From the NCBI GenBank assembly GCA_028690215.1, contig JAQVBQ010000001.1, positions 1 through 64,000 on the forward strand: a DNA stretch of 64,000 bases. The letters run 5' to 3'. This DNA is from Bacteroidales bacterium (GTDB lineage Bacteria > Bacteroidota > Bacteroidia > Bacteroidales > UBA932). Positions within the stretch are counted from its first letter, which is position 1, and the number at the start of each line of letters is the position of its first letter. The notes below the pieces were generated by a model that saw only the letters and a list, made by a program, of their open reading frames with translations, made no database searches and was not told the DNA's origin. The position numbers and the translations under genes are program-made. Shown piece by piece: positions 4,994 through 8,288 of the stretch.

Positions 4994-6577
4994 TCATAAT
5001 CTCATCACCCTCCCCGCTCCTATCTCTCGGACAAAATAGCTGTCGTGCGACACCACAAGCAGTGTTCCTTTGTAGTTTCTGACTGTATCTGTAAGTATGC
5101 GCAAGCTTGAGATGTCCAGATTGTTGGTTGGCTCGTCAAGAATAAGAATATCAGGTATCTGGTTTGAAATCATAAGACAACACAAATAGAGACGCATCCT
5201 CTCTCCCCCACTCAATACACGGCAGTTTTTGTCCCACACATCTTTGGGAAACAATGCCCTGTTGAGCCTTATCTTTACCTCATGCTCCGGCAAGTTGGAA
5301 ACATTATAGCGATTAGCAAGTCCAAGTACAGTCATGTCTACATTTACCTCTCTGTACTCCTGGTCAAGATAGAGATATGAGAAAGAGGCACGCTCTATCT
5401 CGCCGGAGGCAGGTTCGAGCTTTCCTGTAATAAGGTTGATCAATGTTGTCTTTCCTGATCCGTTGTCACCCAGGATATGAATCCTCTCTCCACTGAAAAT
5501 CTCGAAATCGAGAGGGTTATTCCAGAACGGGACTCCTTTGCTGAACTCATAATTAAGACCTCGGGCGGAGATGAGTCGCTTGCCCTTATGCAGCCCTGCA
5601 TCTTCAACATCAAGTTTCATCTCTACCCTTCCTATCTTTTGCGACCTGAGGTCGGTCAACTTTTCCCGGCTCTGCTGAACAATCTTTTCGTGTTTCTCCT
5701 TAAGTTTTGCATCTGTATTCTCTCCCCTGTTCGATACCGTTTTCCTCAGAATGCGGATAATCTGAGACTTGTTGCGTTCTCCGCGCCCAACCCTTTTTTC
5801 CTGCCGCTGCTTCACCTCCTGAGCCATCTTCCTTACCTCACGCAATCTCTTCTCCTCATTGTGAATCTTCTCCTGCAATGAGTTCTCCTCCAGACTCCTC
5901 GCCTCACTGTAAAAATAGAAATCTCCCCCATATATCCTGAGCCCTTTCGGGGTCAGCTCCATTGTCGTCTTTATACGTTCCAGAAGGCTCACATCATGGC
6001 TGACAATTATGATGGATGCCTTTACGCTGTCTATATAATCATAAAGAATCTCTCTCGCGGTATAGTCAAGATGGTTTGTAGGTTCATCCATCAATATTAC
6101 CTTCGGATTGTGTATATCCAGCCCGGCAAGGAATACCTTGGTCTTCTCCCCTCCACTGAGATTGTCGAAATCATCGGTCAGCCGGATATTTGACAACCCC
6201 CATTTTGCAAAGGCTTTTTCGCAGCGTGACTCAATATCCCAGTCATCGGAAAGGGTGTCATAATCGGATTGTGAGGTGCTTCCACCGGTTATTGCATGAA
6301 GAGCTTGCAGTTTTTCAGCAACTTTCAGAAACTGCGCGACATATTTCCCCGTTGGGACCACATTCTGTGGAATGTAATAGGGCTCTGAAGAGAACTGTAT
6401 GCTTCCATCAGATTGCCTCAACTCTCCGGCAATGACTCTCAGGAGTGTGGATTTTCCTGTCCCGTTGTCTCCGATAATGGAGACAGTGCTGTTATCAGCC
6501 ACAGAAAAGCTGATGTGTTCAAATATAGTGTTTTGATTTTGGTAGTGATACGAAATATCACTGACAATTATACTCAT
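4994..6577 (-). CDS. ABC-F family ATP-binding protein
   Basis: Two Walker A motifs (GDNGTGKST, GDNGSGKTT), LSGGEKTK and LSGGERMR signatures, DEPTNHLD/DEPTNNLD, charged inter-domain linker, no TM segments. Confidence 0.93.
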   Translation of the reverse strand: MSIIVSDISYHYQNQNTIFEHISFSVADNSTVSIIGDNGTGKSTLLRVIAGELRQSDGSIQFSSEPYYIPQNVVPTGKYVAQFLKVAEKLQALHAITGGSTSQSDYDTLSDDWDIESRCEKAFAKWGLSNIRLTDDFDNLSGGEKTKVFLAGLDIHNPKVILMDEPTNHLDYTAREILYDYIDSVKASIIIVSHDVSLLERIKTTMELTPKGLRIYGGDFYFYSEARSLEENSLQEKIHNEEKRLREVRKMAQEVKQRQEKRVGRGERNKSQIIRILRKTVSNRGENTDAKLKEKHEKIVQQSREKLTDLRSQKIGRVEMKLDVEDAGLHKGKRLISARGLNYEFSKGVPFWNNPLDFEIFSGERIHILGDNGSGKTTLINLITGKLEPASGEIERASFSYLYLDQEYREVNVDMTVLGLANRYNVSNLPEHEVKIRLNRALFPKDVWDKNCRVLSGGERMRLYLCCLMISNQIPDILILDEPTNNLDISSLRILTDTVRNYKGTLLVVSHDSYFVREIGAGRVMRL

Positions 6578-6590
6578 GACAATTAATTAA

Positions 6591-6676
6591 AAGGCCTTTA
6601 AAAAGGCAGTTAAACCTAATCTCTTATTCTTTACTTTAAGGTTTAATGAAACCTTTAATTAACCGTTAACTCTCAT
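6591..6676 (-). promoter_or_regulatory. Putative attenuator leader of the ABC-F gene: MRVNG leader ORF (6659-6676), competing hairpins, terminator-like hairpin
   Basis: Leader RNA has ATGAGAGTTAACGGTTAA, then AAGGTTT-CATT-AAACCTT (6638-6655). An alternative helix pairs TTAAACCT with AGGTTTAA (6639-6646 with 6610-6617). GCCTTTTTAAAGGCCTTTTAATTAATT follows (hairpin at 6594-6607). Confidence 0.55.
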
Positions 6677-6698
6677 TGGTATAATTTTAATATTTACG

Positions 6699-6706
6699 CA
6701 AATATA
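6699..6706 (-). promoter_or_regulatory. Bacteroidetes-type -7 box (TATATTTG) for the ABC-F transcript
   Basis: Reverse complement of caaatata; 23 nt upstream of the MRVNG leader ORF. Confidence 0.45.
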
Positions 6707-6782
6707 TAAAATTTTTCCAACGGAGAAGTTCTGTTGTTCTTACTTGTTTTTTGTATATTTATATATTTAAAAATTAGAAATT

Positions 6783-8288
6783 ATGCTGGATTCAGAAAAA
6801 AGAATGTATGTGGCGCATGGTAAGGCACCTATATACATAAACCCGAAGATGGTCAACAGACATGGTCTTATAGCCGGTGCCACAGGAACAGGAAAGACAG
6901 TCAGCCTTCAGGTATTGGCAGAAACTTTCAGTGAAGCCGGTATACCATGTTTCATGGCCGACATGAAGGGGGACCTCTCAGGTATAAGTCAGCCGGGTAC
7001 GAGCAACAAATTTATAGAGGCACGGATAGCCGAATTTGGCCTTAAGACTCCAGTATTTCAAAGTTGTCCTGTAAGGTTCTTCGATGTATTCGGACAACAG
7101 GGGCATCCAATGAGGACTACCATATCTGAAATGGGTCCTCTCCTGCTTGCAAGGCTTATGGAGTTGAATGAGACCCAAGCAGGTGTGTTGAATATTGTAT
7201 TCAGGATAGCTGATGAAAAACAGATGTTGCTTATAGATATAAAAGATCTCAGGGCAATGCTCGATTGGGTATCCAAAAATGCCAAGGAGTTCACCTCTCT
7301 ATATGGAAATATATCCTCATCGAGTATCGGAGCAATACAGCGTGCATTATTAAGCATGGAGAGCCAGGGAGCAGACAAGTTTTTTGGGGAACCTGCATTC
7401 AACATCTTTGATCTCATCCAGAATGAAAATGGGAAAGGGGTCCTGAATATACTTGCAGCCGACAAGCTGATGATGGCACCGAAGCTATACTCTACATTCC
7501 TGTTATGGCTGCTTTCAGAGCTTTACGACCAGCTTCCTGAAGCCGGAGACCTGCCTCTTCCAAAGCTAGTATTCTTCTTTGATGAGGCACATATGCTTTT
7601 TGAGGATGCCCCGAAGGCCCTTACTGACAAGATAGAACTGATTGTAAGGTTGATACGTTCAAAAGGTGTTGGTGTATACTTTATAACTCAATCACCGTCT
7701 GATATCCCGAATGATATACTGGGACAACTCGGTAACAGAGTACAACACGCCCTCAGAGCATTCACCCCTCAGGACCAAAAGGTGGTCAGGGCTGCTGCTG
7801 AGACATTCAGGGCAAATCCGGCTTTCAAGACAGAGGATGCCATTCTTGAGTTGGGAACAGGAGAGGCATTGGTCTCATTCCTGGATGAAAAGGGCTCGCC
7901 ATCTGTAGTTGAACGGGCGAAAATGCTTTTCCCGCTGAGCAGCATCGGTGCAATCACGCCGGAACAGAGATCTGCGTTTATCAAAGGGTCCCGATTGTAT
8001 GGAATATATGAAAGAAGCTTCGACAGAGAGTCTGCTTATGAAATTATTACCGACCAGCAACTTGTTGAAAAAAGGAGGGCAGAACAGGAACGGATTGATA
8101 AGGAGCGGGAGGCAGAAGAGATACGCATTGAAAAAGAGCGAATGGCGGAGGAGAGAAGAGTGGGAAGAGGTCGCTCTACAAGCAGGTCTCCTCTTGACAG
8201 GGCTATTGGTTCTGCAGCAACAAGCATTGGAAGAAGTGTCGGTACACAGATTGTCCGAGGGATCCTCGGAGCTATTTTTAAAAAATAA
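6783..8288 (+). CDS. HerA-like/DUF853 ATPase
   Basis: [20 protein letters not shown] Walker [16 protein letters not shown] Walker [15 protein letters not shown]; basic/coiled C-terminus. Confidence 0.88.

Follow-up and report, generated by a model that had tools for sequence, protein, structure and literature searches.

A mini-uORF and a conserved start-site helix as a putative translational attenuator for an ARE-like ABC-F gene in Bacteroidales

The ARE-like ABC-F gene on the minus strand of the window (the whole analysed stretch of 64,000 nucleotides, part of the 153-contig Bacteroidales draft genome G000) is preceded by a leader that is best read as a real, conserved translational attenuator. 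It is built around a mini-uORF that resembles the uORFs of the Firmicutes VmlR and CplR systems, and its RNA design is different. Relief of the attenuator by a ribosome held at or near the uORF start codon is, in our judgement, the likely mode of action. The promoter box, the uORF and a long helix, P1, are conserved together with their spacing and covariation. The gene and its leader contain the following features.

4994–6577 (minus strand), ABC-F gene of 527 aa beginning MSIIVSDISYHYQ, with its ATG at 6577
6699–6706 (minus strand), Bacteroidota -7 promoter box TATATTTG (TAnnTTTG), assigned from sequence and conservation
6679–6686 (minus strand), P0 5' arm AATTATAC, a little 5' of the uORF AUG, from the minimum-energy fold and the clade consensus fold
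6659–6676 (minus strand), mini-uORF ATGAGAGTTAACGGTTAA (MRVNG and stop; ATG AGA GTT AAC GGT TAA), assigned from sequence and orthologues
6652–6666 (minus strand), P1 5' arm ACGGTTAATTAAAGG, comprising uORF codons 4–5, the stop codon and the next bases, from the 15-bp helix and covariation
6638–6655 (minus strand), P2 hairpin AAGGTTT-CATT-AAACCTT, whose 5' side overlaps that of P1, seen in the sequence
6639–6646 (minus strand), P2' 5' arm TTAAACCT, the alternative pairing of the 3' half of P2, 91% paired in 10 sequences
6610–6617 (minus strand), P2' 3' arm AGGTTTAA, complementary to TTAAACCT, with GGTTTAA invariant in 10/10 sequences
6594–6607 (minus strand), P3 hairpin GCCTTTTTAAAGGC followed by CTTTTAATTAATT, terminator-like by a consensus scan
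6579–6593 (minus strand), P1 3' arm CTTTTAATTAATTGT, immediately 5' of the ABC-F start codon, from the helix search, covariation and the fold
6566–6573 (minus strand), P0 3' arm GTATAATT, within ABC-F codons 2–4, from the same folds as the P0 5' arm

An initial annotation of this DNA had pointed to the box, the MRVNG ORF, the P2 hairpin, the 8-bp alternative helix and P3 with its tail, all of which are present on the minus strand where it had placed them; P1, the largest feature of the leader, was overlooked. This helix came from a search, made without regard to ORFs, for leader sequence able to pair with the last bases 5' of the ABC-F start codon. In the window it has 15 bp (6666–6652 with 6593–6579) and ends 2 nt 5' of the start codon, and none of 60 dinucleotide shuffles gave an equally good helix; across ten window-type leaders it has 11–15 bp and is matched by 0–3% of shuffles. 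An alignment of ten divergent Bacteroidales leaders demonstrates changes on both sides at 6 of 11 pairs, with 99.1% of positions paired (0/500 shuffles), whereas sliding the partner along the same alignment leaves only 21–58% pairing. The minimum-energy fold of the window leader (-28 kcal/mol, z = -2.8) includes P0, P1 in a slightly shifted register, P2' and P3. P0 joins positions 6686–6679 with ABC-F bases 6573–6566, appears in a nearby register in the clade consensus fold, and has one pair with both sides changed. The P1 3' arm, which is also the T-rich tail after P3, hides the ABC-F start site.

Within this leader, P2 and P2' are mutually exclusive. Covariation of the alternative helices, suggested in the initial annotation as a check, is seen for P2' at one pair, where T-A is replaced by G-C; the helix is otherwise mostly invariant. 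A counterpart of P2, a GTYGGTTT..AAACCGAC-type hairpin, is legible in other clade members, and the predicted balance between P2 and P2' is not uniform among them.

Among relatives carrying the gene, Bacteroidales bacterium CF (CP006772; 83% protein identity) is the closest. Nine more distinct leaders, upstream of orthologues 50–83% identical to the window protein, have the same layout of box, five-codon uORF, P1, P2/P2', P3 and start codon. Their uORFs encode MRING, MRINN (twice), MKINN (twice), MKRDN, MRVNS, MKMNS and MKMSN, always with five codons. In the protein tree, the window-type leaders all fall into one clade of 11 rows. The earlier idea of an attenuator built on a short ORF in the leader is well supported by the uORF and mutually exclusive helices retained in orthologues and by the promoter box at its fixed distance; the conservation of the ORF and helices, on which that idea had been staked, holds. 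This conservation and the folding z-score also set the observed features apart from chance. The eleventh row of the clade, L070, has a transposase-like frame (560–1170, IS30-like by appearance) in place of the promoter and leader, ending about 20 nt 5' of the ABC-F ATG, and expression of the gene may be constitutive there. Among the 70 orthologues in the tree, 14 have a leader outside all described classes.

Most other Bacteroidota orthologues outside Bacteroides (38–48% identity) follow the same plan in a different spelling: TAnnTTTG, a uORF of 1–3 codons (mostly AUG-stop), AATTTCTTTC, about 45–60 nt, GAAAGAAATT and the ABC-F AUG. The helix between AATTTCTTTC and GAAAGAAATT has changes on both sides at 8 of 10 pairs and is 94.4% paired (0/500 shuffles). 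We assembled 37 loci with a significant P1 (matched by at most 10% of shuffles), chosen without the ORF in view. In 34 of these loci an AUG 7–14 nt 5' of the arm opens a mini-uORF that reaches its stop within five codons (7.3% expected by chance), and in 36 of the 37 TAnnTTTG ends 21–31 nt 5' of the uORF AUG, where 0.035 boxes per window would be expected. The AUG-to-arm distance has a standard deviation of 1.3 nt versus 5.8 nt for the stop-to-arm distance (38 leaders, a set partly picked with the ORF in view). By their spacing, the uORF and box put the transcription start 5' of the uORF and indicate that the start codon, and not the peptide, is the reference point. A second helix proposed for the phylum-wide class, between the uORF AUG and a conserved UAUUxUUCAU stretch, was rejected, since in that class own partners paired no better than swapped ones (p = 0.84).

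In the proposed mechanism, the uORF and its preceding bases would pair in the free RNA with the ABC-F initiation region through P0 and P1, enclosing P2' and P3, so that the paired start region would allow barely any ABC-F translation. A ribosome initiating on the uORF would unfold the leader; normally the five-codon ORF would be completed and the RNA would fold back. If the ribosome were held on or near the uORF AUG, its footprint (toeprint at about +16 from the A) would cover part of the P1 5' arm, which starts at +11 in the window, and P1 would not fully re-form, leaving the ABC-F start codon exposed. Modelling supports this exposure. With a footprint to +16 on the uORF AUG, the mean unpaired probability of the start region is predicted to rise from 0.22 to 0.53 for the window type and from 0.30 to 0.50 for the phylum type. 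It rises in 34 of 35 leaders, and more so than with equal footprints placed elsewhere in the leader, and the probability of P1 in the window clade falls from 0.64–0.98 to 0–0.31.

The likely trigger would be drugs of the peptidyl-transferase centre that halt ribosomes as they initiate or shortly thereafter (pleuromutilins, lincosamides, streptogramin A), i.e., the class countered by related ARE-ABCF proteins. We infer translation of the uORF, drug-dependent stalling on it and antibiotic induction of the ABC-F gene. Macrolide-type, peptide-specific stalling cannot be the signal in the AUG-stop members, because their uORFs form no peptide bond; agents holding a ribosome at the start codon can be. 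The argument for stalling at the start codon comes mainly from these phylum-wide members. In the window type, the P1 arm overlaps codons 4–5 and the stop codon, so later stalling within the ORF would open P1 too. For AUG-stop members the prediction is that pleuromutilins, lincosamides or streptogramin A induce the gene and that peptide-specific stallers, e.g., macrolides, do not. Whether the element belongs to a phylum-wide, undescribed class of Bacteroidota switches, whose sensor is the smallest possible uORF, often AUG-stop, reading only a ribosome held on its start codon, is in our view an evenly balanced question.

The closest parallels are found among the Firmicutes. Like vmlR of Bacillus subtilis, whose uORF has three codons (MIN), the window leader combines alternative helices with a short uORF preceding an ARE-type or ARE-like ABC-F gene. 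The toeprint on MIN lies 16 nt from the A of the AUG (PMC9226507). The VmlR MIN, CplR MR[I/M] and VmlR2 MK[L/Q] uORFs are thought to respond to PLSA drugs stalling initiating ribosomes (PMC9226507; PMC10201436). Induction by initiation-stopping drugs is a feature of vmlR (PMC9226507), and by analogy may apply to the window leader. Regulation of vmlR draws on an SD for initiation, on an intrinsic terminator and on NusG pausing in addition to translational control (PMC9226507), whereas the window leader and its relatives have a direct helix between the uORF and the start region, an AT-rich start region, no conserved terminator, and uORFs of 1–5 codons. In Clostridioides difficile, the cplR leader with its uORF MRI likewise controls an ARE-ABCF, and the uORF consensus MR[I/M] resembles the M[RK][IVM] of the window clade; its terminator hairpin also hides the SD, and a long-range helix between uORF and start site is not described in the available portion of the source (PMC10201436). 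A conserved short uORF between promoter and ABC-F gene, as in the VmlR/CplR type, is present in the window leaders and their relatives, and a uORF-regulated intrinsic terminator is not a conserved part of them (4/10 close and 9/28 phylum-wide leaders pass a lax scan).

Attenuators that work on translation offer the other comparison. Regulation of ermC relies on a longer leader peptide, in which stalling is specific to macrolides and to the peptide. As in ermC-type attenuators, a ribosome stalled on the leader ORF would free a hidden start site, and unlike in ermC the AUG-stop uORFs of the relatives exclude peptide-specific stalling. The tetQ leader of the Bacteroides element CTnDOT places a ribosome-protection gene under translational attenuation (Wang et al. 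2005, as cited in PMC5418344), as proposed for the window gene, the likeness resting on the description of the system; tetQ differs in responding to tetracycline and in encoding another kind of protection protein. The feature that defines the tetQ/ermC type, a start region held in a helix that a leader-ORF ribosome would disrupt, is found here in the covariation of P1 and in the footprint modelling. Bacteroidota make little use of Shine-Dalgarno sequences, and the leader, if its proposed function is true, would provide a case of regulated start-site masking in such a phylum.

The ABC-F protein itself is probably of the antibiotic-resistance (ribosome-protection) type. It has two ABC_tran domains with a long inter-domain linker, whose helices span residues 220–272 and 275–313 in the AlphaFold2 model (pLDDT 85). 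The nearest solved relatives by sequence are VmlR2/ExpZ, PoxtA and VmlR, and the top Foldseek matches are PoxtA and VmlR2; the housekeeping proteins YbiT, EttA and Uup follow close behind VmlR2 and PoxtA in both sequence and fold matches. The NCBIfam model NF000355 (ribosomal-protection ABC-F) scores 372.2 bits, just under its curated cut-off of 380, and orthologues from Empedobacter and Parabacteroides are annotated with its name. A Bacteroidetes-specific ABC-F subfamily, BdAF1, was described earlier (PMC6723617). Ribosome protection and resistance are putative roles of the window protein.

The same RNA switch could also serve a general sensor of translation stress, in which any stalling on the uORF, whether from slow release, initiation defects or starvation signalling, would free P1, and the ABC-F would act as a general rescue factor for stalled ribosomes instead of conferring drug resistance. 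The absence of peptide-bond formation on the relatives' AUG-stop uORFs agrees with sensing that is not peptide-specific, VmlR is induced by assembly defects as well (PMC9226507), and the window protein stays below the cut-off of the resistance model. However, the characterised proteins closest to it in sequence are of the ARE type, one member of the family lies beside the estT, floR and aadS genes on an Empedobacter plasmid, and one copy of the leader precedes a Cfr-like gene. We regard this sensor as an unlikely, if serious, alternative to drug-responsive attenuation.

Still less probable is attenuation of transcription, in which P3 with CTTTTAATTAATT would terminate and stalling on the uORF would shift P2/P2' to an antiterminator; the initial annotation had proposed terminator/antiterminator switching of this kind. 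P3 and its tail do pass the lax terminator scan in the window (0.2 expected), P2 and P2' are mutually exclusive and conserved, and termination is used by ARE-ABCF leaders of Firmicutes (PMC9226507; PMC10201436). Yet P3 is merely a 5-bp stem with a broken T-run, only the minority of close and phylum-wide leaders counted above pass the same scan, and the P2/P2' alternation leaves P3 out. The orthologues have a hairpin in the P3 position, and in most of them the P1 3' arm (CTATTAATTG) follows it in place of a U-tract. The tail that had been taken for a terminator is terminator-like in the window and is at the same time the conserved P1 3' arm. We rejected the terminator/antiterminator model as the P3 tail lacks conservation of its terminator character; the mechanism is probably not of this kind, translational attenuation fits better, and a contribution of termination is possible in individual species. 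That the helix does no more than hold down translation of ABC-F, or serves as a thermometer, with the uORF incidental, is very improbable: P1 is the strongest conserved feature and would be enough alone to repress, but the fixed distances of the AUG from the arm and of the box from the AUG speak against it.

In the sequences searched, this leader layout occurs only before the ABC-F gene or a decayed copy of it. The window and a 400-kb part of the CF genome together contain 356 ORFs of 150 aa or longer; a mini-uORF of some kind lies upstream of 167 of them, and the box, uORF and P1 occur together for only two, the two ABC-F genes. Covariance models made from the two leader classes, with 10–13 candidates scored per genome, gave 3 matches in 295 Bacteroidales genomes and 14 in 297 Bacteroidota genomes. 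Sixteen of these 17 matches precede this ABC-F gene, and within this search no leader was found before unrelated genes save at a decayed ABC-F copy. At that locus (L108, G409:C9:438698-438795), the leader precedes a 24-codon ABC-F remnant and then a gene that most resembles Cfr 23S rRNA methyltransferases (385–388 bits, under the model cut-offs; RlmN 226 bits). A PhLOPSA resistance spectrum of the Cfr type would fit the presumed signal. A Cfr-like gene as a recurrent second target was rejected, being found in 1 of 345 genomes. The exact phylum-type pattern is absent from viral contigs, and an Rfam search of seven loci gave no plausible match, the sole hits being chance ones in L034, to miRNA families and distant from the leader. 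Our search of the available literature found no earlier description of MRVNG, of uORFs of Bacteroidota ABC-F genes or of bacterial AUG-stop uORFs.

Three Empedobacter plasmids carry ABC-F orthologues with an identical phylum-type leader, among them plasmid pLPY01 of Empedobacter stercoris (L109), where the ABC-F gene lies beside estT, floR and aadS. The leader of L109 is closely like the copies L016 and L017 from Bacteroidales drafts of two families, suggesting that the gene and its leader may have moved together by horizontal transfer. If the proposed mechanism is true, the ABC-F genes of many Bacteroidota, including those of the Empedobacter multiresistance plasmids and the Bacteroides copies, would normally be silent. 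Drugs stalling ribosomes at initiation would turn them on, so that resistance could escape tests done without induction.

The Bacteroides-type leaders (L011, L021, L074, L075, L076, L087 and L088) are about 250–290 nt long. Their first uORF (e.g., MRISK and stop) has an arm, ATATCTAAGT, that pairs with ACTTAGATAT directly before an AUGUAA mini-ORF. These leaders appear to contain two uORFs, or switches, in series, with the MRISK uORF gating the AUGUAA ORF that precedes the ABC-F gene; the second mini-ORF may itself pair close to where ABC-F starts, as TCTATTTTT with AAAAATAGG in L074.

On the plus strand of the window, a terminator-like hairpin at 6718–6736 (CAACGGAGAAGTTCTGTTG followed by TTCTTACTTG) is located in the intergenic region that separates the ABC-F promoter from the divergent gene at 6783–8288, which by appearance encodes a HerA-type ATPase.
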